This document shows positions 5,299 to 52,962 of a DNA stretch of 64,000 bases, piece by piece. The stretch is taken from IMG/VR virus record IMGVR_UViG_3300042449_002472, positions 1 to 64,000 of that record. One strand, given 5' to 3'. Numbering within the stretch: position 1 is the first letter of the stretch; the number at the start of each line of letters is the position of its first letter. This DNA comes from a virus. The notes beneath the pieces were generated by a model. That model made no database searches, was not told the DNA's origin, and was given only the letters and a program-made list of their open reading frames with translations. A program made the translations under genes and the position numbers.

Positions 5299-5709
5299 TT
5301 ATTTGGTGATTTCCGATACTGTTCCTGTTAGTTTGATATTTTGGATTGGATGCCAATCAGTAATATCATTGCTCATAGCTGGTTTACCTCCAGCGAGTGT
5401 ATTAACTGCTATAGTTACATGAGGTATTTTGTTATTGCTTTTGAATCCATTTACTTTAACGGCAATAGCCATATTACTTATTCCTATTTCCGATGCTATT
5501 AGATTAACTTCTTGGTTGATAAGAGAATCTTCTGGTGGGTTAAGTTTTCCCAAATTGATAGTCATATGGTGAGCAAAAGTCTTCCAATTTTCTGGTATAT
5601 ATTCTTTAAGTTCATCCAATAATTTTTCATGGCTTTGTTGGTTTAAGACAATGGCAGAGTAGGATACTTTTTTATCTTCTCTGTTTTCAATCCAGTTTTT
5701 GAAGTTCAT
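5299..5709 (-). CDS. Leader-bearing 2H phosphoesterase
   Basis: 136 aa. It begins MNFKNWIENRED, a member of the cargo leader family. After it come the two H-x-T motifs of the 2H phosphoesterase/RNA-ligase-end-processing superfamily: H48-M-T50 and H97-V-T99, each in a beta strand. Known family members hydrolyse 2',3'-cyclic nucleotides, ADP-ribose cyclic phosphate or RNA ends. I infer a virion-packaged RNA- or nucleotide-processing enzyme. The ATG lies just after the TAA of a relic cargo C-terminus (5714-5797), the same stop-ATG junction as the main array. Confidence 0.75.
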   Translation of the reverse strand: MNFKNWIENREDKKVSYSAIVLNQQSHEKLLDELKEYIPENWKTFAHHMTINLGKLNPPEDSLINQEVNLIASEIGISNMAIAVKVNGFKSNNKIPHVTIAVNTLAGGKPAMSNDITDWHPIQNIKLTGTVSEITK

Positions 5710-5713
5710 TGGG

Positions 5714-5797
5714 TTACTTTGCAGCTATTGTTTGAGTTAAGTATTTATCGATTAGTTCTTGTATTTCTGGTGTTTTCTTTGTGTAATATTTTACCAG
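5714..5797 (-). pseudogene. Relic C-terminus of a solenoid cargo gene
   Basis: Reading - strand from 5797 gives KLVKYYTKKTPEIQELIDKY and then LTQTIAAK, ending at TAA 5714-5716. This is the signature C-terminal tail of the cargo proteins at 7848-9323 and 13105-14670. There is no body or start. It lies in the same frame directly after the stop codon of the 5807-6403 gene. It is the 3' scar of a cargo gene whose core was replaced. Confidence 0.8.
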
Positions 5798-5806
5798 TTT
5801 AAATAT

Positions 5807-6403
5807 TTAAACAGTAACTGAGTACCCTATCGATAGACAAAAATCATTAAATTTTGAATAATTTTTGTATTTTATGAAATCTTTATGTTCAAATTTTGTT
5901 CTTCCACGAACATGTTTTTTGCTATTGATATCAACTGGTTTTTTATATTGAATGCCAAGATAATCACATAAAATTTCGAGTTGATCTTCTATTCTTATTT
6001 TAAGTTCAACTCTTGTATGGTTTTGAATTTTCTGATATCTTTGAATCAAATTTTCCATAGCAGAATTAACATCAAAAACTTCTCCATGATTAATTTGAAT
6101 GCACAAATGACTATTTAAAACAGAAATTGGATTCCTATAAATTAGAACTATGGGCAATTTTGAAATAGGTTCATAGTTACAATATTCCATAGCAGTGTAA
6201 TTACTTTCTCCTTTTGCTATTTTGTATAATGGAATTCCATCATATTCAATCATTCCATTTGGTCCGTAATTCCAAATTGAAGTAACTGGATTATAATGTA
6301 GCATTTCATGGCAACAAGGAAAGCCGCAATATGTCAAATAATTAGCGGTAAATGAAGTTCCTCCACCGTAATTTCCACAAAAAATATGTGTTAAATTATT
6401 CAT
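5807..6403 (-). CDS. Sulfotransferase-like protein
   Basis: 198 aa. The N-terminal strand-loop CGNYGGGTSFTANYL resembles the PAPS 5'-phosphosulfate loop, and LPIVLIYRNPISVLNSHL resembles the 3'-phosphate motif. I infer transfer of sulfate, or a related P-loop transferase role, on a glycan or small molecule. It has no cargo leader and its own Shine-Dalgarno (AGGA, 7 nt from ATG). It sits exactly between a leader scar (6411-6443) and a C-terminal scar (5714-5797), so it appears to have replaced a cargo gene. A second sulfotransferase-like gene lies at 38654-39379. Confidence 0.65.
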   Translation of the reverse strand: MNNLTHIFCGNYGGGTSFTANYLTYCGFPCCHEMLHYNPVTSIWNYGPNGMIEYDGIPLYKIAKGESNYTAMEYCNYEPISKLPIVLIYRNPISVLNSHLCIQINHGEVFDVNSAMENLIQRYQKIQNHTRVELKIRIEDQLEILCDYLGIQYKKPVDINSKKHVRGRTKFEHKDFIKYKNYSKFNDFCLSIGYSVTV

Positions 6404-6410
6404 AATATTC

Positions 6411-6443
6411 CTATAAAATTTTTATAATTTGTTTAAAGTTCAT
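6411..6443 (-). pseudogene. Relic leader MNFKQIIKIL
   Basis: ATG at 6443, three bases after the TAA of the 6447-7844 gene, reads MNFKQ, the cargo leader start, then runs to TAG at 6411-6413. The same TAA-xxx-ATG-AAC-TTT-AAA junction opens the intact cargo genes. The TAG overlaps the AGGA used as Shine-Dalgarno by the 5807-6403 gene. It could be a translated leader peptide for coupling, but it looks like the 5' scar of the lost gene. Confidence 0.7.
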
Positions 6444-6446: not shown

Positions 6447-7844
6447 TTACTTTGCAGCTTGTGTTTGAGGTAAGTATTTATTGATTAGCTCTTGTATTTC
6501 TGGTGTATTTCCGTGGTATGTTGTTATTAGGTTTGCCATTTCTTTTTTATCGGTTGTATAGTGAAATAGATAATAAGCAATGAGAGGAGATATTTTTAAT
6601 TTAGATACAATCCATTCTATCATTGCTTTGTCATATCTTTCAAACACATAACGAATTAAGTCGATAATGTTGCTTTCGTAGAATTTTGATTCTTTAGCAA
6701 TAATTAATTCTATTGTTTTTTTTGCATAAATTGGTTTAATATCATGAATAAGATCTTTAATATTTTTATAAGATATTTTGGGTTTTTTATTTATTATAAG
6801 TTTTTTAATTGGTTCTGGATAGGTTGAATATAAAGTCAAATGTCTGACATCATTATCAGAAAGTTCTGGTTTATAATTTACAATTAATTGTGCTATATGA
6901 TCATTATGACTACCTGCATATCCAAGAAGTTTCAATACATTATCATCAGAAAGGTTTGTTTTTTTCTTTAGGATTAGTTCTGCAATTTTAACTTTACCTT
7001 CGTTTGTTGTATAAAAGGCCAAATTTTTAATATCATTATCAGAAAGATTTGTTTTTTTATTGATGATTAGTTCTGCCATTTTGTCTTTATCTGTTGTATT
7101 TTTTAGAACTCCTTCAATATTTCTATGAGATTGAAGAATTGCATCCAGTTGTTGGTCAGAAATTTTATTTGGGTTGTATTTTTCTCTTTTGACAATTTGT
7201 CCTTTTTTATTTTTATCGATGATATTATTGTCGATAGAGTATAAGACTTTTAAGGCATCTTTTGCGAATACCACACCTTGAGTTGATTCTTGAGGGTGGA
7301 TTGTGCCAGTTCCATGATCTACGAATCCATCGACACCACATTTTCTAAGATTAGAGTTCCATTCTGATGGTTTGTCATTTGCGATTGCTTTTGTTACAAG
7401 CCATAGCATAGAATAATTGCTACGAAGATTATATTCATCTTTTTTTATTTTATCTTCAGCCTCGTAAACTTTTTTGAGCGAGAAAACATTACCACTATAA
7501 AGTATATCCATACCTTTTTGTTCTTCATCACTAGGATTCATATGTAATATTTTTTGTGGTCTTGTGAATTCGCAGACATTGAGATAAGGTTGATCTCCTG
7601 CGAATGGAACATCCATTTCATTTTCAATGACATAATTTAATGGATAAAAATAAATTCCGATTGGTGTTTTATATTCGCTTTTTGGATTGATCCCAACTTT
7701 ATCGATTGCGGTATAAGTTACGACAAGGTTTTCTGGATTGGGATGAGTTTTTTGAATATGTTGTAGTGCGAGAAGGGGATCACGAAATTCTTGATCCTTT
7801 ATCATTATCTTTTCAGTTAGTATTAGCCATTGTTTAAATTTCAT
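6447..7844 (-). CDS. Cargo protein, TPxGIYxYP-type head with solenoid tail
   Basis: 465 aa starting MKFKQWLILTEKIMIKDQEF. The head (to about residue 210) has VTYTAIDKVGINP, then TPIGIYFYPL, VPFAGDQPYLNV and, near its end, GTGTIHPQESTQGVVF. These pieces are reminiscent of ADP-ribosyltransferase-like folds (aromatic-GIY turn, late E/Q-V-V-F strand), but I cannot prove it. The tail has about six ~33-aa units of the type DKDKMAELIINKKTNLSDNDI, a two-helix alpha-solenoid, and ends QTQAAK. Paralogue of 11204-12655. The stop is 3 nt from the next leader ATG. Confidence 0.75.
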   Translation of the reverse strand: MKFKQWLILTEKIMIKDQEFRDPLLALQHIQKTHPNPENLVVTYTAIDKVGINPKSEYKTPIGIYFYPLNYVIENEMDVPFAGDQPYLNVCEFTRPQKILHMNPSDEEQKGMDILYSGNVFSLKKVYEAEDKIKKDEYNLRSNYSMLWLVTKAIANDKPSEWNSNLRKCGVDGFVDHGTGTIHPQESTQGVVFAKDALKVLYSIDNNIIDKNKKGQIVKREKYNPNKISDQQLDAILQSHRNIEGVLKNTTDKDKMAELIINKKTNLSDNDIKNLAFYTTNEGKVKIAELILKKKTNLSDDNVLKLLGYAGSHNDHIAQLIVNYKPELSDNDVRHLTLYSTYPEPIKKLIINKKPKISYKNIKDLIHDIKPIYAKKTIELIIAKESKFYESNIIDLIRYVFERYDKAMIEWIVSKLKISPLIAYYLFHYTTDKKEMANLITTYHGNTPEIQELINKYLPQTQAAK

Positions 7845-7847: not shown

Positions 7848-9323
7848 TTACTTTGCAGCTATTGTTTGAGTTAGGTATTGATTGATTACTTGTTGAATTT
7901 TTGGTGTTTTATTTGTGTGGTATTTATTTAGTATTTGTGCCATTTTTGGTTGGTCTTTTTCATAATCAAGTAAATTTATAATGTTCTGATCAGAAAGTTT
8001 GTTTATATTATCTGTTCCTAATAGTTTTGCTATTTGTTCTTTATCTATTGTATGTCGAAGTAAAGTAATAACATCGGCATCAGAAATTTCTGTTTTGTGT
8101 TTTATAATTAGTTCTGCTATTTTATCTTTGTTTATTGAATTTATAAGCAGATCATAAACACTTTGATAAGAAAGTTCTAATTTTTTATTTATAATTGCTT
8201 CTGCTATTTTATCTTTATCGGATGCACTATAAAGTAAAAGTTGGATTATAGTGCTAGAAAAGTTTGTTTTTTTGTTTATAATTAGTTTTGCTATTTTATC
8301 TTTGTCTGTTGTAGTTTGTAACAAATCAACAACATTTGTATCAGAAAGTTTTGTTTTGTATTTTACAATTAGTTCTGCTATTTCGTTTTGTTTAGTTGAA
8401 TTTTTAAGAAAAACTTTAACATTAGTATCAGAAAGTTTTGTTTTGTACTTTATGATTACTTCTGCCATTTTGTCTTTATCTGTTGACTTTTTAATCAAAA
8501 GACTGACATCAAAATCAGAAAGTTCGTTTAGATTTGATCCTAAATATTTTGCTACTGCTTCTAAATTTTTAGAATTTAACAATTTATTAAAAATGCTTTT
8601 ACCGATTTCGTAATTGTAACCAAATGAAAATTTTTCTCTGTTTGGTGATTTATAAATACTTTTCATACTTGCCTTATCGGTGGAGGTAATCCAGCCAATA
8701 TTACTCTTTAGATCTTTCATTTTTTGTTCATCGTTTGCATCTGCTTCTGCAACCGCATAACCCAACATTGTTATTGTTTCATCTTTAACTGGTTGATATT
8801 TAACTAAGCAGTAGCCATCATTTGCTCCATAATAGATAATTCCTTTAATTGATTTTTCTATCCAATCATTTTGGTCGTAGAATTTTTTTGCTAAAATTGC
8901 CGAATAGGTTTCTTTTTCTTGTAGTTCATCGTAGTGTTTTAAGTTGTCGCCTTTTTGACCACCAAATTCCCCTTTAGTTACTTTGTTTAGTAGTCCAAAT
9001 TTCTTTAATTGACTGCTTATTTTGTAATCATTGCCATGGATTTTTTTTGCTTCAGATAATTCAAATATGAGGTACTTGTCAAGGTCTGTTACTTTAAATT
9101 TGACTAATGTTTCGCCATACATTTTCATATAATCGGTAAATTGACTTTCTATTTTATAAGTAGTATAAAGACCACAACCATACCAACAACCTTTACCTGC
9201 TCCTGATTTGAAATCAGATGTGAGTATATTTGATACAGAGTCAACATTTGTCCTATGATAGACAGTTGCAGTCTTATTTTGAGCATAAATTTCTTCAGAT
9301 ATTAGCCATTCTTTAAAGTTCAT
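7848..9323 (-). CDS. Cargo ART-like protein with solenoid tail (copy 1)
   Basis: 491 aa starting MNFKEWLISEEIYAQNKT. Residues ~18-215 form the head: ATVYHRT, then SNILTSDFKSGAGKG, CGLYTTYKIESQF, and later GIIYYGANDGYCLVKY. H-x-T, the G-L-Y-T-T turn and the late strand follow the order of PARP/ART-type motifs, so a NAD-dependent ADP-ribosyltransferase is suspected. The catalytic Glu is not obvious. The rest is about seven solenoid repeats (DKDKIAELI then LSDxNV), ending TQTIAAK. No gene precedes it on this strand; a CATAAATA box lies close to the ATG, so it likely opens an operon. Confidence 0.75.
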   Translation of the reverse strand: MNFKEWLISEEIYAQNKTATVYHRTNVDSVSNILTSDFKSGAGKGCWYGCGLYTTYKIESQFTDYMKMYGETLVKFKVTDLDKYLIFELSEAKKIHGNDYKISSQLKKFGLLNKVTKGEFGGQKGDNLKHYDELQEKETYSAILAKKFYDQNDWIEKSIKGIIYYGANDGYCLVKYQPVKDETITMLGYAVAEADANDEQKMKDLKSNIGWITSTDKASMKSIYKSPNREKFSFGYNYEIGKSIFNKLLNSKNLEAVAKYLGSNLNELSDFDVSLLIKKSTDKDKMAEVIIKYKTKLSDTNVKVFLKNSTKQNEIAELIVKYKTKLSDTNVVDLLQTTTDKDKIAKLIINKKTNFSSTIIQLLLYSASDKDKIAEAIINKKLELSYQSVYDLLINSINKDKIAELIIKHKTEISDADVITLLRHTIDKEQIAKLLGTDNINKLSDQNIINLLDYEKDQPKMAQILNKYHTNKTPKIQQVINQYLTQTIAAK

Positions 9324-9335: not shown

Positions 9336-9427
9336 TGAGTTTAATCGGGAAATAAGTCTTGTGTGTAATAAAAATTTTGTTATATTTTAAATTAAATTAA
9401 TTGTGTTATTCCTAACAGGAAATGAAC

Positions 9428-10734: not shown

Positions 10735-11268
10735 ATGAAATCTTTTTATGAATATGTAAAAGTGCGTGATATTAATGAAGATTACTATGATTCTAGAAAA
10801 CCCGTTGAAGGTTATGTTGATGCTAATGATTTAGTAGGACAAAGACTCTGGTTTCACACTAATAGAACTCATAAAATTCAGGGTTTAAATGGCATGATTG
10901 GTATTTATCAAACTACACCAAGCGGTAGAAAAAAAGGATTGGCTGGCAAATATACAAATGAAGTAAGATTGTCGGAACCTATTTTTTTTCAAACATCGGA
11001 ATCTGGTGCCAAACAAATTATGGAAAAAGATAAAAGAACTTTAATTGCTGGTGTTTCTGGAAAAGTTGTTCCTACTAATAATGATACAAGCGGTATGGTA
11101 AAGATTACTTATAATCCATTCAATGAAGATGCACCATGGTTTCATGCCATTGATGATTCAGAAAATAAAGAAATTGTGTCTGCTTCTGAAGTTTATTTCA
11201 ATGCTACTGAAAATGGTCAGTGGGATATATGGGCAAAGAATCCTGTTCATGCTTTAAAAACTCTTTAA
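10735..11268 (+). CDS. Leader-bearing cargo protein, unknown fold
   Basis: 177 aa starting MKSFYEYVKVRDINEDYYD, the second leader subtype (MK-S/T-F-x-x-Y-V/I-x-x-R-D). The body has RLWFHTNRTHKIQGLNGM and many short strands and looks globular and soluble, but I do not recognise it. AAGGT lies 5 nt before the ATG. Its last 65 bp overlap, tail to tail, the 3' end of the 11204-12655 gene on the other strand, so the C-terminus of each constrains the other. Confidence 0.65.
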   Translation: MKSFYEYVKVRDINEDYYDSRKPVEGYVDANDLVGQRLWFHTNRTHKIQGLNGMIGIYQTTPSGRKKGLAGKYTNEVRLSEPIFFQTSESGAKQIMEKDKRTLIAGVSGKVVPTNNDTSGMVKITYNPFNEDAPWFHAIDDSENKEIVSASEVYFNATENGQWDIWAKNPVHALKTL

Positions 11269-12655
11269 TTTTTTCATTTTTATTTTTATGATATTTTTCT
11301 ATAATTTGTATTATTTTTGGTTTATCTTTTTCTGGAACTTTTTCATGTAAAAGTGTGATAGAAAACCAATTAAGTCTACTTATATTATCTTCTCCTAATT
11401 TTTTTGCTATTTTGTCTTTATCAATTGCATAAGTTAGAATATTGATCATATTTTTATAAGTCATTTCTGGTAATCTTTCTATAAGAAGATTTGCCATCTT
11501 GTCTTTATCAGTTGCATATTGAAGAAAATTTTCGACATTATTATCAGTAAGTTTTGTTTTATAATCAATAATCAATTCTATGATTTTATCTTTATCGTTT
11601 ACGAGTGAGATCATATATGAAACATTACTATCTGTAAATTCTGGGGTTTTTTGAATAATCATTTTTGCCATTTTGTCTTTATCTTTTGCATGATAAATCA
11701 AATCTTCAACATCGACATGAGAAATATATGTTTTATATTTTATGATTAGATCTGCCATTTTTTCTTTTTCTGTTGTATTTTTAAACAAGTTTGTAAGATC
11801 TAAAGATCTACGAGATTGCAATAAGCCTATAATTTGTTCATCTGACATCTTATTGCTATTATATTTATCTGTTTTTTTGAAGTATGTTGAGTTGTCAATT
11901 GAGTGAAGTAGTTTCAAGGCACTGGTAGCAAAAACAACGCATTGGGTTGGTTCGCTTGGATGAATTGTTCCAGTTCCATGATCTACAAATCCATCTATTC
12001 CACATTTTCTAAGATTGGCGTTCCATTGTGTGATTTTTCTATTTGCAAGTATTCTTGTTACGATCCACAATTTGGAGTAATTGCTACGAAGTTGGTATGC
12101 TGCTCCTTGCAATTCATCTTTTACATAATCATAATAAGTTTTGGCATCAATATACTTTTTATAAAGATCATCTTCTTTTTCTTGATCATATTGAAGATTA
12201 TTCAGTTTGGTTTTTTTGTGATCTGATAATTTTTGAGCTTTATTGAACATGTCTACTGATGGATTAATTTCTTTAATAGCTTGATCTACTTGTTCTTTTG
12301 GAAAAACATTGAGTAGTTCCATTCCATCTTGTTTAGACACATCGGGATTCATATGTAATATTTTTTGTGGTCTTGTGAATTCGCAGACATTAATATAAGG
12401 TTGATTTGCAGCGAATGGAACATTCATTTTCTTTTCAATTACATAATCTATAGGATAGAGATAAATGCCAAGTGGTGTTTCATATTTGCTTTCTGGATTA
12501 AGACCAACTTTATCGATTTTGGTAAAAGTTACGGCTAGTGTGTTGGGGAAAGGGTGATTTTTTCGAATATATTGTAGTGCAATAAGAGGCTCACGGAATT
12601 CTTGATCCTTTATCATTATCTTTTCTGTCAGTAGTAGCCATTCTTTAAAGTTCAT
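11204..12655 (-). CDS. Cargo protein, TPxGIYxYP-type head with solenoid tail (copy 2)
   Basis: 483 aa starting MNFKEWLLLTEKIMIKDQEF. It is a clear paralogue of 6447-7844: VTFTKIDKVGLNP, TPLGIYLYPIDYVI, VPFAANQPYINV, ILHMNPD and GTGTIHPSEPTQCVVF. Compared with that copy it has an extra ~40-aa lysine-rich segment around residues 130-175. The tail has about six solenoid units (TDKDKMANLLI and similar) and a charged end without IAAK. The start ATG overlaps the TGA of the upstream Nudix gene (ATGA), so translation is probably coupled. Confidence 0.75.
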   Translation of the reverse strand: MNFKEWLLLTEKIMIKDQEFREPLIALQYIRKNHPFPNTLAVTFTKIDKVGLNPESKYETPLGIYLYPIDYVIEKKMNVPFAANQPYINVCEFTRPQKILHMNPDVSKQDGMELLNVFPKEQVDQAIKEINPSVDMFNKAQKLSDHKKTKLNNLQYDQEKEDDLYKKYIDAKTYYDYVKDELQGAAYQLRSNYSKLWIVTRILANRKITQWNANLRKCGIDGFVDHGTGTIHPSEPTQCVVFATSALKLLHSIDNSTYFKKTDKYNSNKMSDEQIIGLLQSRRSLDLTNLFKNTTEKEKMADLIIKYKTYISHVDVEDLIYHAKDKDKMAKMIIQKTPEFTDSNVSYMISLVNDKDKIIELIIDYKTKLTDNNVENFLQYATDKDKMANLLIERLPEMTYKNMINILTYAIDKDKIAKKLGEDNISRLNWFSITLLHEKVPEKDKPKIIQIIEKYHKNKNEKIKEFLKHEQDSLPIYPTDHFQ

Positions 12656-13101
12656 TGGGTTATCTTTTTTGAAAAAACACTTAATATAAATTCTTTTATG
12701 TATGGAACAAAATCATAATTATTTATTTCATCTTTTGTAATAAATTTATAATTTGAATTTTCATAATCTAATTTTATATTTTGACTTTCTAATTCTCCAT
12801 AAAAATAATAAATCTCTCCAGCATCAACAGTCATTATTTTATGATCAAAAGAAACATTATTTGGTTTTAATCCTATTTCTTCAAGGCACTCTCTTATTAT
12901 GGCTTCTTTTGGGTTTTCTCCTTCTTCAATTCCGCCACCTACTAAGCTCCATTTGTTTGGCATCCAAGGAGCAGTAGATCCTCTTTTTAGTATTAAGACT
13001 TTATTATCATTTAAAAGTCCTATTACAGATGTTTTAAATTTAGAATGATCTGTATCAGTTGATGTCTCTTCTTTCAGTATTAGCCATTCTTTAAAGTTCA
13101 T
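12652..13101 (-). CDS. Leader-bearing Nudix hydrolase
   Basis: 149 aa starting MNFKEWLILKEE. The Nudix box is complete: G56-x5-E62-x7-R70-E71-x-x-E74-E75-x-G77-L78. The family cleaves nucleoside diphosphates linked to another moiety, such as ADP-ribose, NAD or capped RNA ends. Being packed between ART-like cargo genes, an ADP-ribose or NAD-related substrate is plausible but not shown. It follows the TAA of 13105-14670 by 3 nt and overlaps the next gene by 4 bp, so it is fully embedded in the cargo operon. The leader distinguishes it from the Nudix gene at 18413. Confidence 0.85.
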   Translation of the reverse strand: MNFKEWLILKEETSTDTDHSKFKTSVIGLLNDNKVLILKRGSTAPWMPNKWSLVGGGIEEGENPKEAIIRECLEEIGLKPNNVSFDHKIMTVDAGEIYYFYGELESQNIKLDYENSNYKFITKDEINNYDFVPYIKEFILSVFSKKITQ

Positions 13102-13104: not shown

Positions 13105-14670
13105 TTACTTTGCAGCTATTGCTTGAGGTTCAAGGTATTTATCGATTAGCTCTTGAATTTCTGATGTTTTATTTGTGTGATATTTGTTTATGATTTGTGC
13201 GATTTTTGGTTTGTCGGTTACAGCAACAAGCAAACGATAAACACCATCATCAGAAAGTTCTGGTTCCTTTTTCATAATATATTCTGCTATTTTTTCTTGG
13301 TCTTTTGCATATCGAATCAAATCACGAACACCATTTTCAATATCTATTTTTGATAGTTTGTTTATGATTAATTCTATTATTTTGTCTTTGTCGTTTGCTT
13401 TAAAAATAAAATAATAAACATTATCCTCAGAAAGCTCTGGTTTGTATTTTATGATTATTTTTAACATCTCGTCTTTGTCATTTACTCTTGCAATCAAATC
13501 ACGAATAAGAAGATTAGAAAGTTTGCTTATATTGTCTTTTTCTTTTTGCAATATTTCTGCTATTTTTTCTTTATTGTTTGCCTTAAGAAGCAAATAATAA
13601 ATATTATCATCAGAAAGTTCTGGTTTCTTTTCAATAATTAGTTCTGCTATTTTGTCTATGTTATCTGCATAAGAAAGCAAATGAAAAACATTATGATCAG
13701 AAAGTTCTGGTTTCTTTTCAATAATTAATTTTGCTATTATATCTTTTTCCTTTGCATTCATAATTGAAGTGCTGACATCTTTGTCAGAAAGTTTTGTTTT
13801 ATACTTTATAATTACTTCTATCATTTTTTCTTTATCGGTTGCCTTATAAAGTAAAACGCCAACATTATCTTGAGAAAGTTGGTTTAGATTTGATCCTAAT
13901 TTTTTTGCTGTGTATTCTACATTTTTAGATTTTAACAATTGATTCATAATATGGACATTGTCATCTTCGCCAAATGAAAATTTTTCTCTATTAGATATTG
14001 GTGATTTATAAATACTTTTAATACTTGCCTTATCGGTGGAAATAATCCAATTTTTTGATTTTGGATTTTTAAGTTCTTCCATCTTTTTCATATCATCATA
14101 TTTTGCAACTGCATAGGCCAACATGGTTATTGTTCCATCTTGGACTGGTTCATATTTAACTAAACAATAACCATCATTTGCTCCATAATAAATAATTCCT
14201 TTTACCGAATTTTCTATCCATTTGTTTTTTTCGTAGAATTTTACCGCCAAAACCGATGAAAAGCTTTCTTTTTCTTGTTGTTCATCGTATTCTTTCAACT
14301 TACTTTCATCTACTTTGTTTAATACTCCTAATTTCTTTAATTGATCGCTTATTTTGTAATCCTTGCCATGTATTTGTTTTGCCACAGATAATTGAAATAT
14401 AAGATATTTATCGAGATCTGTTACTTTAAATTTGACTACTGCTTTACCATAAGTTTCCATGTAATTAGTAAATTGGCTTTCTATTGCAAAAGTAGTGTAA
14501 AAACCACAACCATACATACAACCTGAACCAACTTTAAAATCTTTTGTGAGTATGCTTGATACAGCTTGAACGCTTTTTTCTTCATCGCAACCAGGACAAG
14601 TTCTATGATAGACAGTTGCAGTCTTATTGGGGAAGATTTCTTCAGATATTAGCCATTCTTTAAAGTTCAT
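13105..14670 (-). CDS. Cargo ART-like protein with solenoid tail (copy 2)
   Basis: 521 aa starting MNFKEWLISEEIFPNKT. The head shows TVYHRT, a Cys pair CPGC just after it, SSILTKDFKVGSG, CGFYTTFAIESQF and GIIYYGANDGYCLVKY. It is closest to the copy at 18891-21062, which also has the Cys-containing insert after YHRT. The tail has about eight to nine repeats such as DKEKMIEVIIKYKTKLSDKDV, and ends PQAIAAK. The head is inferred to be an ADP-ribosyltransferase-like fold; the solenoid would bind a partner. A 3-nt gap separates it from the next leader ATG. Confidence 0.75.
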   Translation of the reverse strand: MNFKEWLISEEIFPNKTATVYHRTCPGCDEEKSVQAVSSILTKDFKVGSGCMYGCGFYTTFAIESQFTNYMETYGKAVVKFKVTDLDKYLIFQLSVAKQIHGKDYKISDQLKKLGVLNKVDESKLKEYDEQQEKESFSSVLAVKFYEKNKWIENSVKGIIYYGANDGYCLVKYEPVQDGTITMLAYAVAKYDDMKKMEELKNPKSKNWIISTDKASIKSIYKSPISNREKFSFGEDDNVHIMNQLLKSKNVEYTAKKLGSNLNQLSQDNVGVLLYKATDKEKMIEVIIKYKTKLSDKDVSTSIMNAKEKDIIAKLIIEKKPELSDHNVFHLLSYADNIDKIAELIIEKKPELSDDNIYYLLLKANNKEKIAEILQKEKDNISKLSNLLIRDLIARVNDKDEMLKIIIKYKPELSEDNVYYFIFKANDKDKIIELIINKLSKIDIENGVRDLIRYAKDQEKIAEYIMKKEPELSDDGVYRLLVAVTDKPKIAQIINKYHTNKTSEIQELIDKYLEPQAIAAK

Positions 14671-14687: not shown

Positions 14688-16193
14688 TTATGTAAATGAT
14701 CCAGTTGATAGAACTTTTTTACCTAAATTTAATTTATATCCGCTGCTGTATTTATCAATGAATTCTTGAATTTTTGGAGTTTTCTTTGTGTGGTATTTGT
14801 TTATTATTTGTGCTATTTTGTCTTTATCGTTTGCATCATCATGAAATAAATCAATAACACTTTGATCATCAAGCTTGCTTATGTTGTCTTCTTTTTCTTG
14901 TAATCGTTCTGCTATTTTTTCTTTATCGTTTGCAAAATTAAGCAAATATTGAACATCGAAATAAGAAAGTTCTGGTTTATTTCCAATAATTAGTTCTGCT
15001 ATTTTGTCTTTATCTGTTGCTTTACGAAGCAACAATTCAACATGTTTACCAGAAAGTTTTGATTTCTTTTCAATAATTAGTTCTGCTATTTTATCTTGTT
15101 TGTCGGTTGCAAACTGAATCAAGCTATAAATATTCATATTAGAAAGTTCTGGTTTATTTTTAACAATTAATTCTGCTATTTTGTCTTTGTTGGTTGCAGT
15201 ACGAAGCAAATTTTCAACATTCTCATCAGTAAGTTCTGTTTTATATTTTATAATTAGTTCTGCTATTTTGTCTTTGTCGGTTGCATAATGAAGCAAATGA
15301 AAAACATTCCAATCGGTAAGTTCTGTTTTATATTTTGCAATCACTTCTGCCATTTTGTCTTTATCTTCTGCATGATGAAGCAAACCAGAAATATTCTCAT
15401 CAGAAAATTTGTCTAGATATAATCCTAATTTTTTTGCTGTTTTTTCTAAGTTTTTAGATGTTAAAAAAATATTTTTGACATTTTCGATTTCGCTATAATC
15501 TCCAAATGCAAACTTTTCTTTATTTTCGATTGGAGATTTATAAACATTTTTAATGGGTGTACCTAATATACCAACTGATTTAATCCAACCAATATTACTT
15601 TTCAGTTCTTCCATCTTTTTCATATCATCATATTTTGCGACTGCATAGCCCAACATGGTTATTGTTTTATCTTGAACTGTTGGATATTTAACTAAACAAT
15701 AACCATCTCTTGATCCATAATAGATAATTCCTTTTACCGACTTTTCTATCCAATTATTTTGTTCATAGAATTCATATGCCAAAACTGATGAAAATTTTTC
15801 TTTTTCTTGTCGTTTATCGTAATATTCTAATTTACTTTCATTTACATTTGGTTTGTTTAGTAGTCCTAATTTTTTAAATTGACTGCTAATTTTATAATCA
15901 TTGCCATGTATTTGTTTTGCCTCAGACAATTGAAATATGAGGTATTTATCGAGGTCTGTTACTTTAAATTTGACTAATGCTTCGCCATACATTTCCATAT
16001 AATCGACAAATTGGCTTTCTATTTTATAAGTAGTATAAAGACCACAACCATAAGAGCAACCTGCACCTGCACCTGCTTTAAAATCAGATGTGAGTATGCC
16101 TGATACATCTTTGAGACTTCTTGTTCTATGATAGACTGTTGCGGTCTTATTGGGGAATATTTCTTCAGATATTAACCAATGTTTAAAGTTCAT
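14688..16193 (-). CDS. Cargo ART-like protein with solenoid tail (copy 3)
   Basis: 501 aa starting MNFKHWLISEEIFPNKT. The head has TVYHRTRSLKDVSGILT, AGAGAGCSYGCGLYTTY and GIIYYGSRDGYCLVKY. About eight solenoid repeats follow (TDKDKIAELIIKYKTELTDEN-type). Unlike its relatives it does not end in IAAK: the last ~20 residues (KLNLGKKVLSTGSFT) are different, and the spacing to the next gene is longer. That suggests the shared tail was overwritten by a recombination event. Same inferred role as the other three ART-like copies. Confidence 0.75.
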   Translation of the reverse strand: MNFKHWLISEEIFPNKTATVYHRTRSLKDVSGILTSDFKAGAGAGCSYGCGLYTTYKIESQFVDYMEMYGEALVKFKVTDLDKYLIFQLSEAKQIHGNDYKISSQFKKLGLLNKPNVNESKLEYYDKRQEKEKFSSVLAYEFYEQNNWIEKSVKGIIYYGSRDGYCLVKYPTVQDKTITMLGYAVAKYDDMKKMEELKSNIGWIKSVGILGTPIKNVYKSPIENKEKFAFGDYSEIENVKNIFLTSKNLEKTAKKLGLYLDKFSDENISGLLHHAEDKDKMAEVIAKYKTELTDWNVFHLLHYATDKDKIAELIIKYKTELTDENVENLLRTATNKDKIAELIVKNKPELSNMNIYSLIQFATDKQDKIAELIIEKKSKLSGKHVELLLRKATDKDKIAELIIGNKPELSYFDVQYLLNFANDKEKIAERLQEKEDNISKLDDQSVIDLFHDDANDKDKIAQIINKYHTKKTPKIQEFIDKYSSGYKLNLGKKVLSTGSFT

Positions 16194-16196: not shown

Positions 16197-16769
16197 TTAT
16201 TTTGCAGCCATTGGAATTTGTGGGTATTGTTTTTTAAACCAATCCATATATTTTTGATTAACAATAACTTTTTTATTTACATCTCCAACTCCAATAACAT
16301 GAGCTTGTACATCACCAGAATCATTTACACTTAGGTTTGGTATAAACATTGCCATCATTTTCATAGTTTCTGGTGGTGGCACTATAAATCCTCTTTTTTC
16401 TGCCATGCTTGCTATACTATCACTTACAGCACCCCAAACAGGTTTGTTGAGATTATCAACAAGACTTAATCCTTTTAGAATAGCTCTAGTACTTCCTGCA
16501 ACTCCTGTTAATTTTACTAAACCTGAATTTTGAAATCTAACACAAACAAATCCTGCTGCTGGATCATGTTCAGATTCTGGTGGTATTCCAAAAAAAGTCC
16601 ATGATCTTGATCTTCCAAGGAATGTGTTCATATCCCATGCTTTTCCTGTTGATTTAAGATAAGACTCAACAAAAATATTGTAAACCCATTCTGGCACAAT
16701 GTTCTTATCACTTAATGTAAAACTTTGTGGTTCTGTATTTTCTAATAACCATTCAATAAATGTAATCAT
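16197..16769 (-). CDS. Leader-bearing GNAT-like protein
   Basis: 190 aa starting MITFIEWLLENTEPQ. The middle has FVCVRFQNSGLVKLTGVAGS, then LKGL and PVWGAVSDSIASMAEKRGF, an order that recalls phage GNAT-type folds (central strand, turn, then a helix and a K-R-G-F end). Acetyl-CoA binding residues are not certain. It ends PMAAK, echoing the AAK end of the solenoid cargo although the body is unrelated. That is consistent with exchange of gene bodies between conserved junctions. The next leader ATG is 3 nt after its stop. Confidence 0.5.
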   Translation of the reverse strand: MITFIEWLLENTEPQSFTLSDKNIVPEWVYNIFVESYLKSTGKAWDMNTFLGRSRSWTFFGIPPESEHDPAAGFVCVRFQNSGLVKLTGVAGSTRAILKGLSLVDNLNKPVWGAVSDSIASMAEKRGFIVPPPETMKMMAMFIPNLSVNDSGDVQAHVIGVGDVNKKVIVNQKYMDWFKKQYPQIPMAAK

Positions 16770-27009: not shown

Positions 27010-27012
27010 AAA

Positions 27013-27027: not shown

Positions 27028-27040
27028 AAAGGAAATAAAC

Positions 27041-41206: not shown

Positions 41207-42130
41207 TTAAGACAATTCTTTTATTACATTTGTAAAATCGGCCAAAGGTATTTGATCTGGTGTTGTTACTGTTGATGAAATCCTATGTTTGTCCAACAGT
41301 GACAATTTTAAAAATGAAGACTTCCTTTTTTCTATAGTATTCTTAAATGCAGAAAAGAAATTAGGCACAACAAAATAAGCCTTTGCAAAATCTAATCTTT
41401 TATTTTTTGAGATGAAATAAAACTTGACGACCACAAATTCATCTTCCATTTTTACACCAGTTGGAACTATAACAAATGGTTTTTTGGGAAAATCTTTGTC
41501 TATCATTCCAGTATGTGCAATTTTAGATGGATCTAAAGTTATGTATTTTTTTACAAAATTGTTTTGTAACAAAGGTAGACTTTTCAAAAATCTTTGAATA
41601 ACCCTTTTGGTTTCCTTTGCTTCTCCAGCTATTGTATCCCAATCTTTTAAAGCTTTTTCTGATTTTTCTTTATTTTTCATTCTGTCAAAAAGATCTTTTC
41701 TAAGAAATAAGCCATATTGAACTATCGGATACATGTCTTTCATATATCTATCGTAAAATCTTTTATACATAACTTCCATATTTGGATCAGAAGACAAGAA
41801 AGAAATAAGTTCTGGTTTAAATTGATTTACAAAAGCCAATACTATCTTAACCAAGCTTGAATAAACGGCAGATGGGTTTCTACTTTTATTAGTAAGATTA
41901 TAACCGCCATAAGGATCTGTAAGATTGACATCATAACACTTCATATTTGGAAAGCCAGTTCTACTCTTTTCAGTAAAAAAGATAGTATGTTTGCCATCAT
42001 CAGAAACAAAATCTGATTTATAGCCACTTTCTCCACTTCTAGACATATAAGTATCAAATTTAACGGAAGATGTATCAGCTTTAAATGGGTCTTCTAATTC
42101 ATTTATAATTATCCAATTTTTAAATCTCAT
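41207..42130 (-). CDS. Leader-bearing cargo protein, FYxRY family
   Basis: 307 aa starting MRFKNWIIINELEDPFKAD. A central region has VKIVLAFVNQFKPELISFLS followed by MYKRFYDRYMKDMYP, then a strand-helix region. The same order, P-E-x-x-x-F-S then Y-x-R-F-Y-x-R, occurs in 51153-51770 and 52204-52962, so the three are paralogues. The fold looks GNAT-like (helix after Y-D-R) but no acetyl-CoA motif is clear. Divergent from 42197-43777 across a TATATATA-rich gap. Confidence 0.6.
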   Translation of the reverse strand: MRFKNWIIINELEDPFKADTSSVKFDTYMSRSGESGYKSDFVSDDGKHTIFFTEKSRTGFPNMKCYDVNLTDPYGGYNLTNKSRNPSAVYSSLVKIVLAFVNQFKPELISFLSSDPNMEVMYKRFYDRYMKDMYPIVQYGLFLRKDLFDRMKNKEKSEKALKDWDTIAGEAKETKRVIQRFLKSLPLLQNNFVKKYITLDPSKIAHTGMIDKDFPKKPFVIVPTGVKMEDEFVVVKFYFISKNKRLDFAKAYFVVPNFFSAFKNTIEKRKSSFLKLSLLDKHRISSTVTTPDQIPLADFTNVIKELS

Positions 42131-42196: not shown

Positions 42197-43777
42197 ATGA
42201 ATACATTTTCTGAATTTTTTATAGCACAACAAAAAAATGATGTGACATTTTTTCTAGAAAGTAATCATCAACAATTTGAAGATTCCAAAGAACTTTTCTA
42301 TAACATGATTTGTAAATTTGGAAATGATCCAATCATATTAGAAGCATGGGGCGATTGGTGGAATAAAGCCAAGGAATATGCTGGAAAGGCATGGAATTGG
42401 GCCAATAATAAAGATATGAGTTTACAGGATATTGCCACAGGAACTGGGAATTTGGCAAAAGGTGTGGTTACTGGATACAAACAAGGTTATAAAGCCACAG
42501 AAGGCGAAGCTGGAATAAAGAAAATAGAAAGTATTGCAAAAGAAGTATCAGAATTAGCAAAATCTTTTTCACAAAAATATAAAGTCGATCCAGTAACAGC
42601 AGCGGTTCTTATTTCTGCTGGTGCTACTGGTGGTCTTGGTGCAATTCCAATGATGGCAATAGCAATAGGATTAAGAAGAAGTGGATCATGGTTAGCCGAT
42701 AAAGGATTTGAGAAAGTTTGGGAAAAATTAACTGGTACGACTGTAGATCAAGCTGATGCTGCATGGCAAGGAAGCTCTGCCTCTGCTCCAAAGATGGCAA
42801 GCCCTGCTTCTTCTCCAAAGATGGCAGATCCTGCTGGAACATTTAATGTAATGAACCCCTCAGCAAATTCCGCATCAATTAAAGATCATTTTCAAAATTC
42901 TGGAAATCTTACATTTGAACAATACATCATGTCTAGAGATCCAGAAATGTACATGGAATTAACAAGTTGGTTAAAACAACTTGTTGGTAAAGGTGCAAAG
43001 AAAGCTGGTGAATTTGCTGGTAATGTTGCACAAGGAGCAAAGGATTATGCAAAAGATGTCGGAGAAAGAGGATTTGGAACTGCAACTGGAGAAAGGGCTG
43101 GAAGAGTTTTGGGAAAAGGTGCTGGAACTTTTGTAAACATTTGGAGCGTACTTAAAAAGAGTATTGCAAATGTTGGTAAGTTTATGGCCAACAATCCAGT
43201 TAAAACATCTAAATTGGTATTGGCTATTGCTGCTGGAAGTATGATTGGTCATTATGGAACACAAGCAATCAATAATTTCATTCATAAGCCTTCATCTGAC
43301 CAAATAGGAGAAATTACAAAAGCCGCTAAAGACTCTGGTGTTTCTGATACTGACATAAATGATATTCATAAAGATACTGGATATTCTGGTAAAGGTGGAG
43401 ATTTCAGTAATGCTATTGGTGCAAAAATTAGTTATGGCAATGCAGTCGCACAAGCCAAAGCAGATATCGTTCAAAGCATTAGAGATGGAAATATTACAGA
43501 TTATGAAACTTTACAAAAAGCAATTAAAGATGCACATAATAAATTTTTCCCACTATTAGATCCTATTGGAAAAAGAGTTTTTGACAGTAAATTAGATATG
43601 CATATCACAAGCTTGGCTGGCAATGGTGCTACAGGAAATGCTGCCGAATTAACAATGAAAATCATTAAAAATGCTGGTGGAACTCCAAATATCGAAGCCC
43701 TTTCAAATATGGGGCAAGCAATAAACAAAATTAAATCGTCATTAAATACTGATCAGATTGGTATTGACAACTATTAA
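42197..43777 (+). CDS. Large hydrophobic-segment cargo protein with internal second leader
   Basis: 526 aa starting MNTFSEFFIAQQKNDVTFFL. The two hydrophobic stretches shared with 16786-18354 are present: DPVTAAVLISAGATGGLGAI near residue 135, and NPVKTSKLVLAIAAGSMIGH near residue 334. Between them, after a Pro/Ser/Ala-rich link, comes TFEQYIMSRDPEMYMELTSW near residue 236. This resembles the leader and start of 26554-27009. It therefore looks like two cargo proteins fused, with a potential internal processing site. GGACTAAAA precedes the ATG. Confidence 0.65.
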   Translation: MNTFSEFFIAQQKNDVTFFLESNHQQFEDSKELFYNMICKFGNDPIILEAWGDWWNKAKEYAGKAWNWANNKDMSLQDIATGTGNLAKGVVTGYKQGYKATEGEAGIKKIESIAKEVSELAKSFSQKYKVDPVTAAVLISAGATGGLGAIPMMAIAIGLRRSGSWLADKGFEKVWEKLTGTTVDQADAAWQGSSASAPKMASPASSPKMADPAGTFNVMNPSANSASIKDHFQNSGNLTFEQYIMSRDPEMYMELTSWLKQLVGKGAKKAGEFAGNVAQGAKDYAKDVGERGFGTATGERAGRVLGKGAGTFVNIWSVLKKSIANVGKFMANNPVKTSKLVLAIAAGSMIGHYGTQAINNFIHKPSSDQIGEITKAAKDSGVSDTDINDIHKDTGYSGKGGDFSNAIGAKISYGNAVAQAKADIVQSIRDGNITDYETLQKAIKDAHNKFFPLLDPIGKRVFDSKLDMHITSLAGNGATGNAAELTMKIIKNAGGTPNIEALSNMGQAINKIKSSLNTDQIGIDNY

Positions 43778-50120: not shown

Positions 50121-51158
50121 ATGAAATACATAACACACATAGGTCGCAAATTTTTAAGGAATGGTGGTGCTGAAATCCTTTTAAGAAGCATTTCATCACA
50201 TGAGATGTTTCAAGGCGATTTGCAATTCAGACAAAGTTTATGCATCGATAGAAATTTTTATGATAAAGAATTTTGCGAAACATTTCCTCATCCTGTATAT
50301 CTTGGTGGAAAAAACGAAATAACTAAAGCAATTGAAAATGAAGATATAATTTTATTTTGGGGAGACATCCAATTAAATAATCTAGATATTCCAAAACCAA
50401 AAGTTTGCATATTGTTCGTGTGCAGCGAAGAGCCTAATATAGTTTCCAATAATTCAAGCTATATTACACATTGCATTGCGACATCAAAGAGAACGGCACT
50501 TAATTCGTGTGGCAATATACCATATACAGTAATTTACCCTGGATTTGATGAAATAAGACTAACGCCAACAGAAACTAGAGATTCGCAAAGAAAAAAAATG
50601 GGTCTTGGCGATGATGATTTTTTAGTTGGTATGATTTCAAGAATTGGAGAAAACAAAAGACAATTTTGGCTTATGGAGGCAATTCAAAAAATAAATTCAG
50701 AAAAAATAAAAGCAGTTTTTGTTGGTGGAGGAAAAGATTTAAAAAAACTTAAAAATATGAATGTAAGAAATTGTTTGTTTGTCGGTCATCAAGATGATGT
50801 TGCAAATTGGTATCTGGCCATGGATGCTTTTTGTATATTGTCAAGAAGTGAAGGAGGGCCAACAACCTTATTCGAATCATCTTATATGAAAGTTCCGTTG
50901 ATATATACAGATTGCGGATTTACAAAAGAATTGTGCAATAGTTACAATTCTTTCTTTGTAAGAGATGTTAAAGATTTAATAGAAGTTATAAAAATCATGC
51001 ATTCATTAGGAAAAGAAAATTTAAAAAGATATACAAATAATAATTATAGCATATATGAAGAGTTTGGATCTATAGAAAAATCGGCCAAAAATTGGTACAA
51101 AACAATTAAAGATGTAGTGGCAAAAAAAGAAAGGGAAAATTGCAGATTACTTTCATAA
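50121..51158 (+). CDS. GT4-type glycosyltransferase
   Basis: 345 aa. N-terminal THIGRKFLRNGGAEILLRSI is typical of GT4 enzymes acting on lipid-linked or surface glycans. DDDFLVGMISRIGENKRQFW, AVFVGGGKDLKKL and LSRSEGGPTTLFESSYMKVP (E-x7-E-type site) form the donor domain. Substrates unknown. GGA is ~6 nt from the ATG. It stands alone on + and overlaps the 3' end of the cargo gene at 51153 by 6 bp. Confidence 0.85.
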   Translation: MKYITHIGRKFLRNGGAEILLRSISSHEMFQGDLQFRQSLCIDRNFYDKEFCETFPHPVYLGGKNEITKAIENEDIILFWGDIQLNNLDIPKPKVCILFVCSEEPNIVSNNSSYITHCIATSKRTALNSCGNIPYTVIYPGFDEIRLTPTETRDSQRKKMGLGDDDFLVGMISRIGENKRQFWLMEAIQKINSEKIKAVFVGGGKDLKKLKNMNVRNCLFVGHQDDVANWYLAMDAFCILSRSEGGPTTLFESSYMKVPLIYTDCGFTKELCNSYNSFFVRDVKDLIEVIKIMHSLGKENLKRYTNNNYSIYEEFGSIEKSAKNWYKTIKDVVAKKERENCRLLS

Positions 51159-51770
51159 TCCAATTCTTTTTATTCTTTTTAAATTTTTAATGTTAGAAGA
51201 ACTTTTTTCATAATCTTGTTTGATCAGATCCATAAATTTTTCTTTTAAATTTTCTGGTATAGACATTAAAATCTTATCAATTAATTTATAATCGATGTAA
51301 AAAGTTCCTAACTTTACAAGTCCAAACTCACTAGAAAACCTTTTGTAAAAATCATGATACATAATTTTCAAAGATGCAAATTCAGTGCTAAATTCTAAAG
51401 CAACAGGATTTTCCTTGTCTATTACAGTCTTTATTGACTTCAAGGCTTCTGAATATACTTTATATGGATTCATGCTTTTTCCACTAGGAGAAAGTTCATC
51501 TTTAGCACCTTCTAATGTCATAAAAACAACATAGGTTGGTCTTGTTAATTCGTCTTTAAATTTGTTTTCATATTTGAATAAGTCTGGCATTTTTTGGAAT
51601 AGAAAGTCTTTGACTCCTCTTGGATGCCTTATAAAATTCATTTTATATTTTTCATTTTCAGAAGCATAGAAATGGTAGTCGTATTGCCATTTACTTCCTT
51701 GCAATGCCACTGGCTTGAAATCTGATAAAACAGACCGCAATTCATTTATATATTGATAAAACGATTTCAT
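51153..51770 (-). CDS. Leader-bearing cargo protein, FYxRF family
   Basis: About 205 aa starting MKSFYQYINELRSVLSDF. TYVVFMTLEGAKDE, IDKENPVALEFSTEFASLKI and MYHDFYKRFSSEFG match the P-x-x-x-x-F-S / F-Y-K-R-F pattern of 41207-42130 and 52204-52962. ATG 51770 gives the leader and has TATATATA close upstream without a Shine-Dalgarno. An in-frame ATG at 51803 lacks leader character. Fold may be GNAT-like; function unknown. Confidence 0.6.
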   Translation of the reverse strand: MKSFYQYINELRSVLSDFKPVALQGSKWQYDYHFYASENEKYKMNFIRHPRGVKDFLFQKMPDLFKYENKFKDELTRPTYVVFMTLEGAKDELSPSGKSMNPYKVYSEALKSIKTVIDKENPVALEFSTEFASLKIMYHDFYKRFSSEFGLVKLGTFYIDYKLIDKILMSIPENLKEKFMDLIKQDYEKSSSNIKNLKRIKRIGL

Positions 51771-51812
51771 GAATGTATATATATTTAACCAAGGCATTCT
51801 CAAGAGGTTATA

Positions 51813-52202
51813 ATGAAAAGTATTAATGAATTTAAGGCAAGCGGAAAAATTAAAGACTTAGTTTATAAATTATTTGAAGCAAGACAAGTCTCTCATACTG
51901 CTCATTTACAAACAAAAAGTTATGCCGAACATAAAGCTTTAAATTCTTTTTACAACGACCTACTTGATTTAGCAGATACATTCATTGAAACATACCAAGG
52001 CCAATATGGAATTATTAGTGGGTATGAAAGCATGAGTATTGAAAAAGAATCAGATATTGTCAAATACCTTGAAGATTTTGCCAATGTAATCAAATCGAAT
52101 AGAAAAAACTTAAATGAAGATGACACTCATTTGCATAATATACTTGATGAGATTATGGGTTTGACTTTTCAAACTATTTACAAATTAAAATTTCTAAAAT
52201 AA
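51813..52202 (+). CDS. Dps/ferritin-like helical protein (phage type)
   Basis: 129 aa, all helical. KLFEARQVSHTAHLQTKSYA followed by EHKALNSFYNDLLDLADTFI and ETYQGQYG recall the first two helices of Dps-like four-helix proteins in phages (DUF5856-like). His and Glu residues in those helices could bind iron. It begins MKSINEFKASGK, possibly a weak leader. GAGG is 6 nt from the ATG. It sits between convergent cargo genes. Confidence 0.6.
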   Translation: MKSINEFKASGKIKDLVYKLFEARQVSHTAHLQTKSYAEHKALNSFYNDLLDLADTFIETYQGQYGIISGYESMSIEKESDIVKYLEDFANVIKSNRKNLNEDDTHLHNILDEIMGLTFQTIYKLKFLK

Positions 52203-52203
52203 A

Positions 52204-52962
52204 TTATGATATTGAAGATGCTTTATTTTTATGAGACATTTTAAATTTTCTTATTTTAGAAACATAAGATTTCTTTTCTAAATCTACATCTTGTATTATT
52301 TTAATGAGTTTATCTGGTAAAGATTGATCTATTTTTCTTGAATCTCTTATTATGCTATCAATTTTTTCTTTCTTTATATAAAAGTCAGATCCAACAAAAG
52401 CGTATTGGGTGTGAAGATAATGTTTGTAAAATCTATCATATATTGATATTAAGCTTGGGTCTTGATCACTGGGAGATATCCAAAACGCATCAGGATTCTT
52501 TTCCTCGATAACCTTTCTGGTTGCAACAATCACATTGGCATATACAAATAATGGATCGCTTTCTTCAAATTTACCAAATTTTGGAGTAAAATTACTTTTT
52601 TCGCTATATAAATCTAATTTGAAAATTGATTTTAGATTATTTAAAAATATATCAATAATTTTTTTACCTAAATCAGAATTCTTATCGATTGAAAGTTTTG
52701 CGAGAAATATCTTAGCAATTTCAGCCGATAATCTTCTGCCGAAATTTTCAAATTGAACTTCATAATTGTCAGAATGCTCAATATCATATTCTTTTGATTT
52801 AAATTGATATCCAAAACCAGTACCAAAATTAGACAACTTGACAGAATTAAGTGGTGCTTGCATCGCTGGATATGTTTTCCCAGTTATGGGATCAGTCCAA
52901 TTAAACGAAACTTCTTGCAACAAATCTTCAATAAGGTAATTTTTAAAATTCAATTTGAACAT
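52204..52962 (-). CDS. Leader-bearing cargo protein, FYxHY family
   Basis: 252 aa starting MFKLNFKNYLIEDLLQEV, where LNFKNYLIED is the leader core. NVIVATRKVIEEKNPDAFWI then SIYDRFYKHYLHTQY follows the same pattern as 41207-42130 and 51153-51770. The C-terminus is basic (KIRKFKMSHKNKASS). It starts 4 nt after the stop of 52966-53433, the array-type junction. Function unknown. Confidence 0.6.
   Translation of the reverse strand: MFKLNFKNYLIEDLLQEVSFNWTDPITGKTYPAMQAPLNSVKLSNFGTGFGYQFKSKEYDIEHSDNYEVQFENFGRRLSAEIAKIFLAKLSIDKNSDLGKKIIDIFLNNLKSIFKLDLYSEKSNFTPKFGKFEESDPLFVYANVIVATRKVIEEKNPDAFWISPSDQDPSLISIYDRFYKHYLHTQYAFVGSDFYIKKEKIDSIIRDSRKIDQSLPDKLIKIIQDVDLEKKSYVSKIRKFKMSHKNKASSIS

Follow-up and report, generated by a model that had tools for sequence, protein, structure and literature searches.

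The window analysed here comprises bases 1–64000 (GC 30%) of the 70,861-base virus record IMGVR_UViG_3300042449_002472, and many of its genes encode proteins that begin with one short N-terminal peptide, which we call the leader. We consider it highly likely that this shared N-terminus is a capsid-targeting sequence (CTS) of the T4 type and that it marks an enlarged internal-protein system whose cargo, enzymes included, is injected with the DNA. Packaging of the leader proteins is well supported, and the system very probably works like, and is, a T4-type internal-protein system. A kit of proteins thus marked probably enters the bacterium together with the phage DNA. For the window phage itself, we infer scaffold binding, cleavage, ejection and injection, and the roles of the cargo.

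Open reading frames (ORFs) were taken as the longest non-overlapping frames of at least 60 amino acids, without a gene finder, giving 81 in the window. Leaders were sought at possible start codons with the regular expression (regex) ^M.{1,2}[FY]..[WYF][LIVMF], the loose form; a strict form also demands a Glu and, in the spacer, a polar residue. The loose form matches 26/81 window ORF starts versus 2/361 internal Met sites (Fisher p ~5e-19), or 25/81 with ATG starts only, and the strict form matches 20/81. Pooled over seven other phages, the counts are 21/1121 (loose) and 10/1121 (strict), and some of the 21 are true T4-type leaders. By phage, loose matches number 5/255 in T4, 2/115 in the first 100 kb of phiKZ, 1/214 in the first 150 kb of Flavobacterium phage immuto, 2/68 and 2/71 in parts of LR745206 and LR756502, 5/195 in P-SSM2 (150 kb) and 4/203 in S-SM1. 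At the pooled background rate, chance alone would account for one or two of the window's 26 leaders; the likeliest are the doubtful 35158 and 52204. Chance matches probably also stand in the loose lists, such as a PrkA-like kinase (G008 108306) and hydrophobic TTG or GTG starts. The regex was composed after viewing the window, with the T4 peptide already in view from the original prediction, so the match figures for the window and T4 are partly circular. Strict leaders number 21 in contig G008 and 20 in contig G010. The leader genes of the window encode 101 to 723 amino acids and are listed below, identified by the regex unless another basis is given.

5299..5709, minus strand: leader MNFKNWIENRE; perhaps a phosphoesterase of the 2H type (tRNA_lig_CPD in Pfam at E 3e-4, short of the cut-off)
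6447..7844, minus strand: leader MKFKQWLILTE; repeat-family protein with an N-terminal domain unlike that of 7848
7848..9323, minus strand: leader MNFKEWLISEE; ART-like domain and helical repeats
10735..11268, plus strand: leader MKSFYEYVKVRDINE; Phage_L5_gp82-like (PF25735, E 9.3e-9)
11204..12655, minus strand: leader MNFKEWLLLTE; paralogue of 6447
12652..13101, minus strand: leader MNFKEWLILKEE; Nudix hydrolase (PF00293, E 5.6e-17)
13105..14670, minus strand: leader MNFKEWLISEE; ART-like domain and repeats
14688..16193, minus strand: leader MNFKHWLISEE; ART-like domain and repeats
16197..16769, minus strand: leader MITFIEWLLEN; no family match
18891..21062, minus strand: leader MNFKHWLLSEE at an internal ATG; ART-like domain and long repeat region
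21135..22355, plus strand: leader MKFKIWLENDE; no family match
24445..25692, minus strand: leader MKFKQWLFSEE; CCA-adding/polyA-polymerase-type nucleotidyltransferase (PF01743, E 1.9e-24; leader-bearing homologues)
25694..26539, minus strand: leader MKTFSQYIEHRNVNE; hydrophobic segment
27872..28414, minus strand: leader MITFQSFLKKQ; no Pfam match
28424..29209, minus strand: leader MKSFNLYLVEK; hydrophobic segment
29287..29721, minus strand: leader MNFKNWIESE; no family match
29718..30218, minus strand: leader MKSFKNWFNEN; no family match
30275..31447, plus strand: leader MNFKQWFFNEM; no family match
35200..35829, plus strand: doubtful leader MTFSEFIKNEH (ORF 35158), at the second in-frame ATG only; may be chance
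36186..36491, minus strand: leader MKTFYQYLEG; no PHROGs match
39873..40481, plus strand: leader MKSFHEYVEMRDDYNVDE; Ala/Gly-rich protein (by eye)
40633..41145, minus strand: leader MQFKNWLLQEE; C39-type cysteine peptidase (PF03412, E 2.3e-18)
41207..42130, minus strand: leader MRFKNWIIINE; family with 51153 and 52204
42197..43777, plus strand: leader MNTFSEFFIAQ; hydrophobic segment; homologous to 25694 and to 16786, which has no leader
51153..51770, minus strand: leader MKSFYQYINELR; family with 41207 and 52204
52204..52962, minus strand: doubtful leader; the ATG start reads MFKLNFKNYLIED and the regex fits only from a TTG three codons on

The original prediction spoke of about 26 unrelated proteins under two related peptides. 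Its count stood, with 26 of the 81 ORFs matching where they were predicted, but unrelatedness holds only for about 18 sequence groups: a six-member repeat family (6447, 7848, 11204, 13105, 14688, 18891), one pair (25694/42197), one trio (41207/51153/52204) and 15 singletons. Both peptide forms were seen, but as one pattern with two spacings: across 203 distinct leaders drawn from the window, G006, G007, G008, G010 and the protease loci described below, the first aromatic is residue 4 in 137 and residue 3 in the other 66. In the predicted model of the ART-like cargo domain, residues 1–11 have pLDDT <50. Two further genes (16786–18354 and 31460–31864) have no regex leader, yet share the N-terminal motif Y-x-NQ-x(2)-I-[ST]-E-x-x-W-W, which may be a variant leader; 16786 is homologous to the leader-bearing 42197 and 25694. 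As a second leader type, I-[ST]-E-x-x-W-W was rejected, with only these two and one other match among 4990 distinct ORF starts (0.85 expected). At 26554–27048, translation from an internal ATG would begin MKEYTFKKFLEQRDPKFYDE, which resembles a leader of shifted spacing and was missed by the regex.

Repetition of this kind could also arise at the DNA level, the N-terminus being a by-product of recombination or translation-start DNA, a copied gene-start cassette with no sorting role. Copies of gene ends and leader starts lie at the following places.

5714–5725: gene-end/leader-start copy
6426–6443: gene-end/leader-start copy
6447–6458: gene-end/leader-start copy
7848–7859: gene-end/leader-start copy
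13105–13116: gene-end/leader-start copy
16197–16208: gene-end/leader-start copy

The identical gene end, Ala-Ala-Lys stop, directly precedes three leader genes, whose starts are at 7844, 13101 and 16193. Before the start of 5299 stands a stray copy of it, and before that of 5807 a stray leader start (ATG AAC TTT AAA CAA). Such repeated ends and stray starts between genes suggest cassette duplication and, with the paralogue expansion of one repeat family, speak for a copying origin. Against it, the synonymous codons of the leader are mixed across window genes (Lys leans to AAA), so conservation looks peptide-level, and the peptide pattern recurs in distant phages, T4 and cyanophages included. 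We give a cassette without sorting role very little credence.

The leader resembles the CTS mapped in T4 (cited papers, here and below, in the portions available). In the T4 internal protein (IP) IPIII, targeting was mapped to leader residues 4 and 7 and processing to residues 8 and 10; the gp21 cut site is L/I-x-E, and IP propeptides have 10–19 residues (PMC9026906). The window leader fits these mapped positions 4, 7, 8 and 10, with type-A leaders having one residue fewer ahead of the first aromatic than the T4 CTS. T4 IPII and IPIII (MKTYQEFIAEA) match the regex and make up two of the five loose matches among 255 T4 ORFs, a check of fit only, as the T4 peptide was known when the regex was written. 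T4 IPI begins MKTFKEF, with a TITE-A stretch further along, and window proteins 25694 (MKTFSQYIEHRNVNE-A) and 10735 are laid out like it. A candidate cut site, [LIVMF]xE within residues 6–30, is present in 153/203 leaders versus 444/1149 non-leader N-termini, and in 58/188 control stretches (residues 46–70 of leader proteins). The commonest P1 Glu is residue 10, as in T4 (48 of the 153 leaders with the site). Among ATG-start window leaders, 21/25 have the site.

Relatives of the window phage encode the expected head proteins. Near-identical sister contigs of 39.6, 84.9, 93.0 and 165.2 kb exist, and they and the window record are probably fragments. The 165-kb contig (G016) has homologues (E<=1e-6) of 62 of its 209 ORFs in the 459-kb G008, of 26 in G010 and of 77 in G003/G008/G010; 35 homologous pairs within its 60–117 kb lie in largely reversed order (Spearman -0.66). 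For the window itself, 17/81 ORFs have a match in G003, G008 or G010 (E<=1e-5). A nucleotide search with 24 kb of the window found no near match among named phages, and tblastn of the ART-repeat protein 7848 and the sigma-like 57311 against phages matched neither. Contig G003, found through the leader alone, has both an S77 prohead protease (PF03420) and the major capsid protein gp23. In 41 further records (38 found via leader patterns and 3 via the CCA enzyme), S77 was detected at E<=0.001 in 18 and above the cut-off in 16, namely 15/38 leader-found records and LR756511; contigs with S77 include ones of 459, 323, 320 and 251 kb. GEL[DN]HP and SSRG motifs are common to T4 gp21 and the relatives' proteases in an alignment of 12. 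The gp23 homologues of G003, G008 and G010 have N-termini with RL[MI]NE followed by A or V, resembling leader sites such as WLNE, and judging from sequence they would be cut there.

Leader-pattern loci were pre-selected for leaders, so the association of leader and protease rests on loci chosen by protease, independently of the regex. These are the best 80 of 357 relatives found in viral contigs with a gp21 profile (seeded with leader-bearing contigs, T4 and LR756511), some of them near-duplicates. Loose leaders begin 146/1131 of their ORFs versus 27/5275 internal Mets, and strict leaders 92/1131 versus 12/5275. A strict leader is present in 41/47 loci of at least 10 kb and in 11/33 shorter ones.

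Evidence from virions comes from cyanophages. With ATG starts, the whole S-SM1 genome has two loose leaders, gp53 (MSYFKYFPN) and SSM1_190. The latter is the sole strict ATG leader among 204 ORFs: MKKFSAFLNEAERS (MKKFSAFLNEA), on a cytidyltransferase of the cluster T4-GC190. Its orthologues begin MKSFSQFLTE in P-SSM2 and MKSFFQFLSEA in S-SM2. We know of no report tying the T4-GC190 leader to the CTS. Sullivan et al. (2010) detected 41 proteins with multiple peptides in purified S-SM1 virions, T4-GC190 included (PMC3037559). Three strict ATG leaders occur in P-SSM2 (150 kb). Among its virion genes, PSSM2_114 and PSSM2_115 (L383 49763–50000 and L384 269–529) have strict leaders and are candidate internal proteins.

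The proposal of the original prediction that these proteins are sorted into the head thus gains support from the fit to the T4 CTS, the enrichment of L/I-x-E-like sites, S77 and gp23 in relatives, leaders around protease loci chosen blind to the leader, and the presence of a leader enzyme's family in S-SM1 virions. Several observations weigh against it. Four of the 25 ATG-start window leaders have no [LIVMF]xE in residues 6–30, and many type-A leaders are spaced W-L-x-x-E, unlike the F-I-x-E of T4. T4-GC190 was not detected in S-PM2 virions in an earlier study, as related in PMC3037559, and we found no virion proteomics for the window clade. The gp21-like protease that had been suggested as a check is present in relatives but matched neither in the window's own 70.9-kb record, where the control also matched nowhere (the same family search did match in other records), nor in the sister contigs of 39.6, 84.9, 93 and 165 kb. 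By Pfam, gp23 was not found in the first three of the 70.9-kb record and the 39.6-, 84.9-, 93- and 165-kb contigs. In the 381-kb leader-bearing contig G001, Pfam detected no S77 and no gp23, which speaks against a strict leader–protease link; in all, PF03420 had no match in 7/8 records first tested, the window's own and G001 included. S77 is likewise missing at E<=0.001 from 23 of the 38 leader-found records, although these are 53–204 kb long and may be fragments. Finally, immuto has the protease while only 1/214 ORFs match, so the protease does not imply a leader arsenal.

Some of these points would suit a leader that sorts to a place other than the head, for instance the tail, the cell membrane or a compartment built by the phage. 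The peptide is short and its aromatics are spaced, the surroundings of the window cluster yielded no head gene, four proteins of the examined set have hydrophobic segments, and G001 bears leaders without S77 or gp23. We nevertheless judge another destination quite improbable, in view of the fit to T4 CTS positions and to the T4 internal proteins themselves, the enriched L/I-x-E-like site with leaders around gp21-type proteases, and the detection of a leader-bearing enzyme in virions.

An AT-rich, promoter-like motif is enriched ahead of leader genes. In G010, [AT]TATATA lies within 70 bases upstream of 17/30 leader genes versus 34/413 others (p 3e-10, uncorrected for the several motifs and k-mers tried). 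In the window clade (the window and part of G016), TATATA[AT]A precedes 8/30 leader genes versus 6/141 others, and in G008 the T4-type TATAAATA precedes 4/33 versus 5/640. This enrichment fits late expression of the leader genes, without proving it. The G010 motif also stands ahead of some very large ORFs (1395–1843 amino acids), which from their size are perhaps tail genes. In G010 (L260–L275), the TATATA motif often starts 11–14 bases before the start codon of a leader gene or large ORF, and the mRNAs would then be nearly leaderless. The T4 late promoter TATAAATA was not enriched in the window itself (8 sites versus 12.9 expected).

The cargo was partly as the original prediction had read it. 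Nudix (12652), CCA-adding/polyA polymerase (24445) and C39 (40633) matched above Pfam cut-offs, while the 2H match of 5299 stayed below (E 3e-4); "GNAT-like" 16197 and "papain-like" 29287 found no Pfam or PHROGs match. The ART assignment has indirect support, from a relative and from structural neighbours, but no match at a curated cut-off: scanned singly against Pfam, 7848 and 13105 showed no ART family above it. Their leader-bearing relative L043 is ART-PolyVal (E 9.6e-19) and scores E 1.3e-20 in an iterated profile of the window ART-like proteins, having itself been included in it. With the predicted model (mean pLDDT 69), the best Foldseek hit has E 0.058, and VIA-align gives MbcT at Z 7.3, followed by ART toxins and PARPs at a modest Z of ~4–5. 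Most of the structural neighbours listed are toxins of the ART or RES kind or PARPs, which share the ART fold. Foldseek found nothing at E<=0.001 for the helical-repeat region; a PUF-like fold was considered for it and dropped, as the rows were not significant.

Across 117 leader proteins of the window, G006, G007, G008 and G010, Pfam gave polyA-polymerase/CCA four times and Nudix twice, with C39, Arr-ms, GNAT, HD, AAA_33 and FMN reductase once each among the matches listed (25 of 36 families, some on chance leader matches). Several contigs, some of them found via the leader, encode leader-bearing CCA-type enzymes of 30–93% identity. The CCA-type enzymes of the phages RcXuper, Atu_ph07, MD18 and MaryV are without it, and those of the huge phages LR745206 and LR756502 (L214, L215) start with a leader-like peptide of longer spacing, Y-x-x-F-L-E-S (MILKKYKMFLESRE and MIITKYAKFLES). 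These last two weaken the idea that the CCA enzyme has the leader only where S77 is strong, as their S77 matches are below cut-off. No window cargo protein scanned had two unrelated domain families above the Pfam cut-off, and most matched none. By eye, a serine-recombinase-like protein (9422–10360) lies within the leader-gene cluster. Also by eye, 1153–3549 and 44379–47156 encode large proteins of many short tandem modules (YPSDIEVAKA.GLPDDW; ICxYYKKHGHxPS), and in 27041–27871 and 10403–10693 a start resembling a signal peptide leads into repeats rich in Gly or in Asn/Tyr (FGGGQ; NYNNYGY).

Cargo identity bears on whether the packaged proteins are delivered at all, for they might be structural or assembly parts that act inside the head. 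This explanation shares the role of the leader with the one we prefer. T4 IPIII influences head assembly (PMC9026906), and many protease-chosen loci have a small leader protein ~2–3 kb from gp21. The recognised cargo, in contrast, belongs to enzyme families (CCA-adding, Nudix, ART-PolyVal, Arr-ms, C39) and so fits structural roles poorly. A purely structural function seems unlikely to us, although some members may be structural parts and others effectors.

Our preferred explanation, delivery from the head, can be compared with known systems. Like T4 IPI–IPIII, it has a leader of 10–19 residues with aromatics at 4 and 7, a hydrophobic residue at 8, Glu at 10 and an L/I-x-E-type site, and its clade has the S77 protease and gp23 (in relatives only). 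Unlike T4, with three small IPs, the window has ~24 leader genes per 64 kb, recognised enzymes included. T4 Alt is an ART delivered from the head (PMC5512222), and a short propeptide is removed from it (PMC9026906). Alt begins MELITE, without the leader, whereas the window ART-like proteins have the leader and C-terminal helical repeats. T4-GC190 offers the same leader on an enzyme found in purified S-SM1 virions, but strict ATG leaders are few in the two cyanophages counted (three in 150 kb of P-SSM2 and one in S-SM1). Phages and conjugative elements also encode polyvalent proteins, predicted injected effectors with ART, GNAT and peptidase domains (PMC5512222, PMC7824862); they carry many domains per chain, whereas the window has separate proteins under one tag. 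The large phage phiKZ has inner-body and ejection proteins, with many head-internal proteins cut by a prohead protease (PMC13282480), and SPN3US is likewise a large phage with many protease-processed head-internal proteins. In its first 100 kb, however, phiKZ has 2 loose and 0 strict leaders in 115 ORFs.

The principle is known: the CTS has been proposed as a route by which T4-like phages acquire various proteins (PMC9026906). As far as our search reached, what is new is the scale, the enzyme cargo, the spread through large phages and the connection with a cyanophage enzyme detected in virions. Among open-licence papers, we found no report of such a leader in huge phages, although absence is no proof, and the available portions of PMC7824862, PMC13282480 and PMC12619734 make no mention of one.

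In the mechanism we propose, the leader M-x(1,2)-F-x-x-[WYF]-[LIV]-x(1-3)-E would bind the prohead scaffold core during head assembly, and any protein bearing it would thereby be loaded into the prohead. A gp21-type S77 serine protease would then cut after the Glu of an L/I-x-E-like site, usually near residue 10, and free the cargo within the head. At the next infection, this cargo (ART-like, Nudix, CCA-adding, C39, possibly membrane-active and other proteins) would exit together with the DNA and could act ahead of phage gene expression.

For huge T4-type phages at large, we lean toward general loading in which scaffold and protease recognise a transferable tag of 10 residues, with tens of unrelated proteins per virion, enzymes included. 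The delivered effector set would then be readable from the genome and would cover tRNA repair, NAD/ADP-ribose chemistry and proteolysis at the onset of infection. If this is true, the genome alone would suffice to predict effectors, in the way that secretomes are predicted from secretion signals. Proteins delivered along with phage DNA can get to work ahead of the host's defensive response, and they are hard to find because they have no common fold. A tag that can be read from sequence makes such proteins predictable, and it would assign many uncharacterised large-phage proteins to the virion. It would also be a source of candidate anti-defence and host-takeover enzymes, and would provide natural tags with which proteins could be loaded into T4-type heads.

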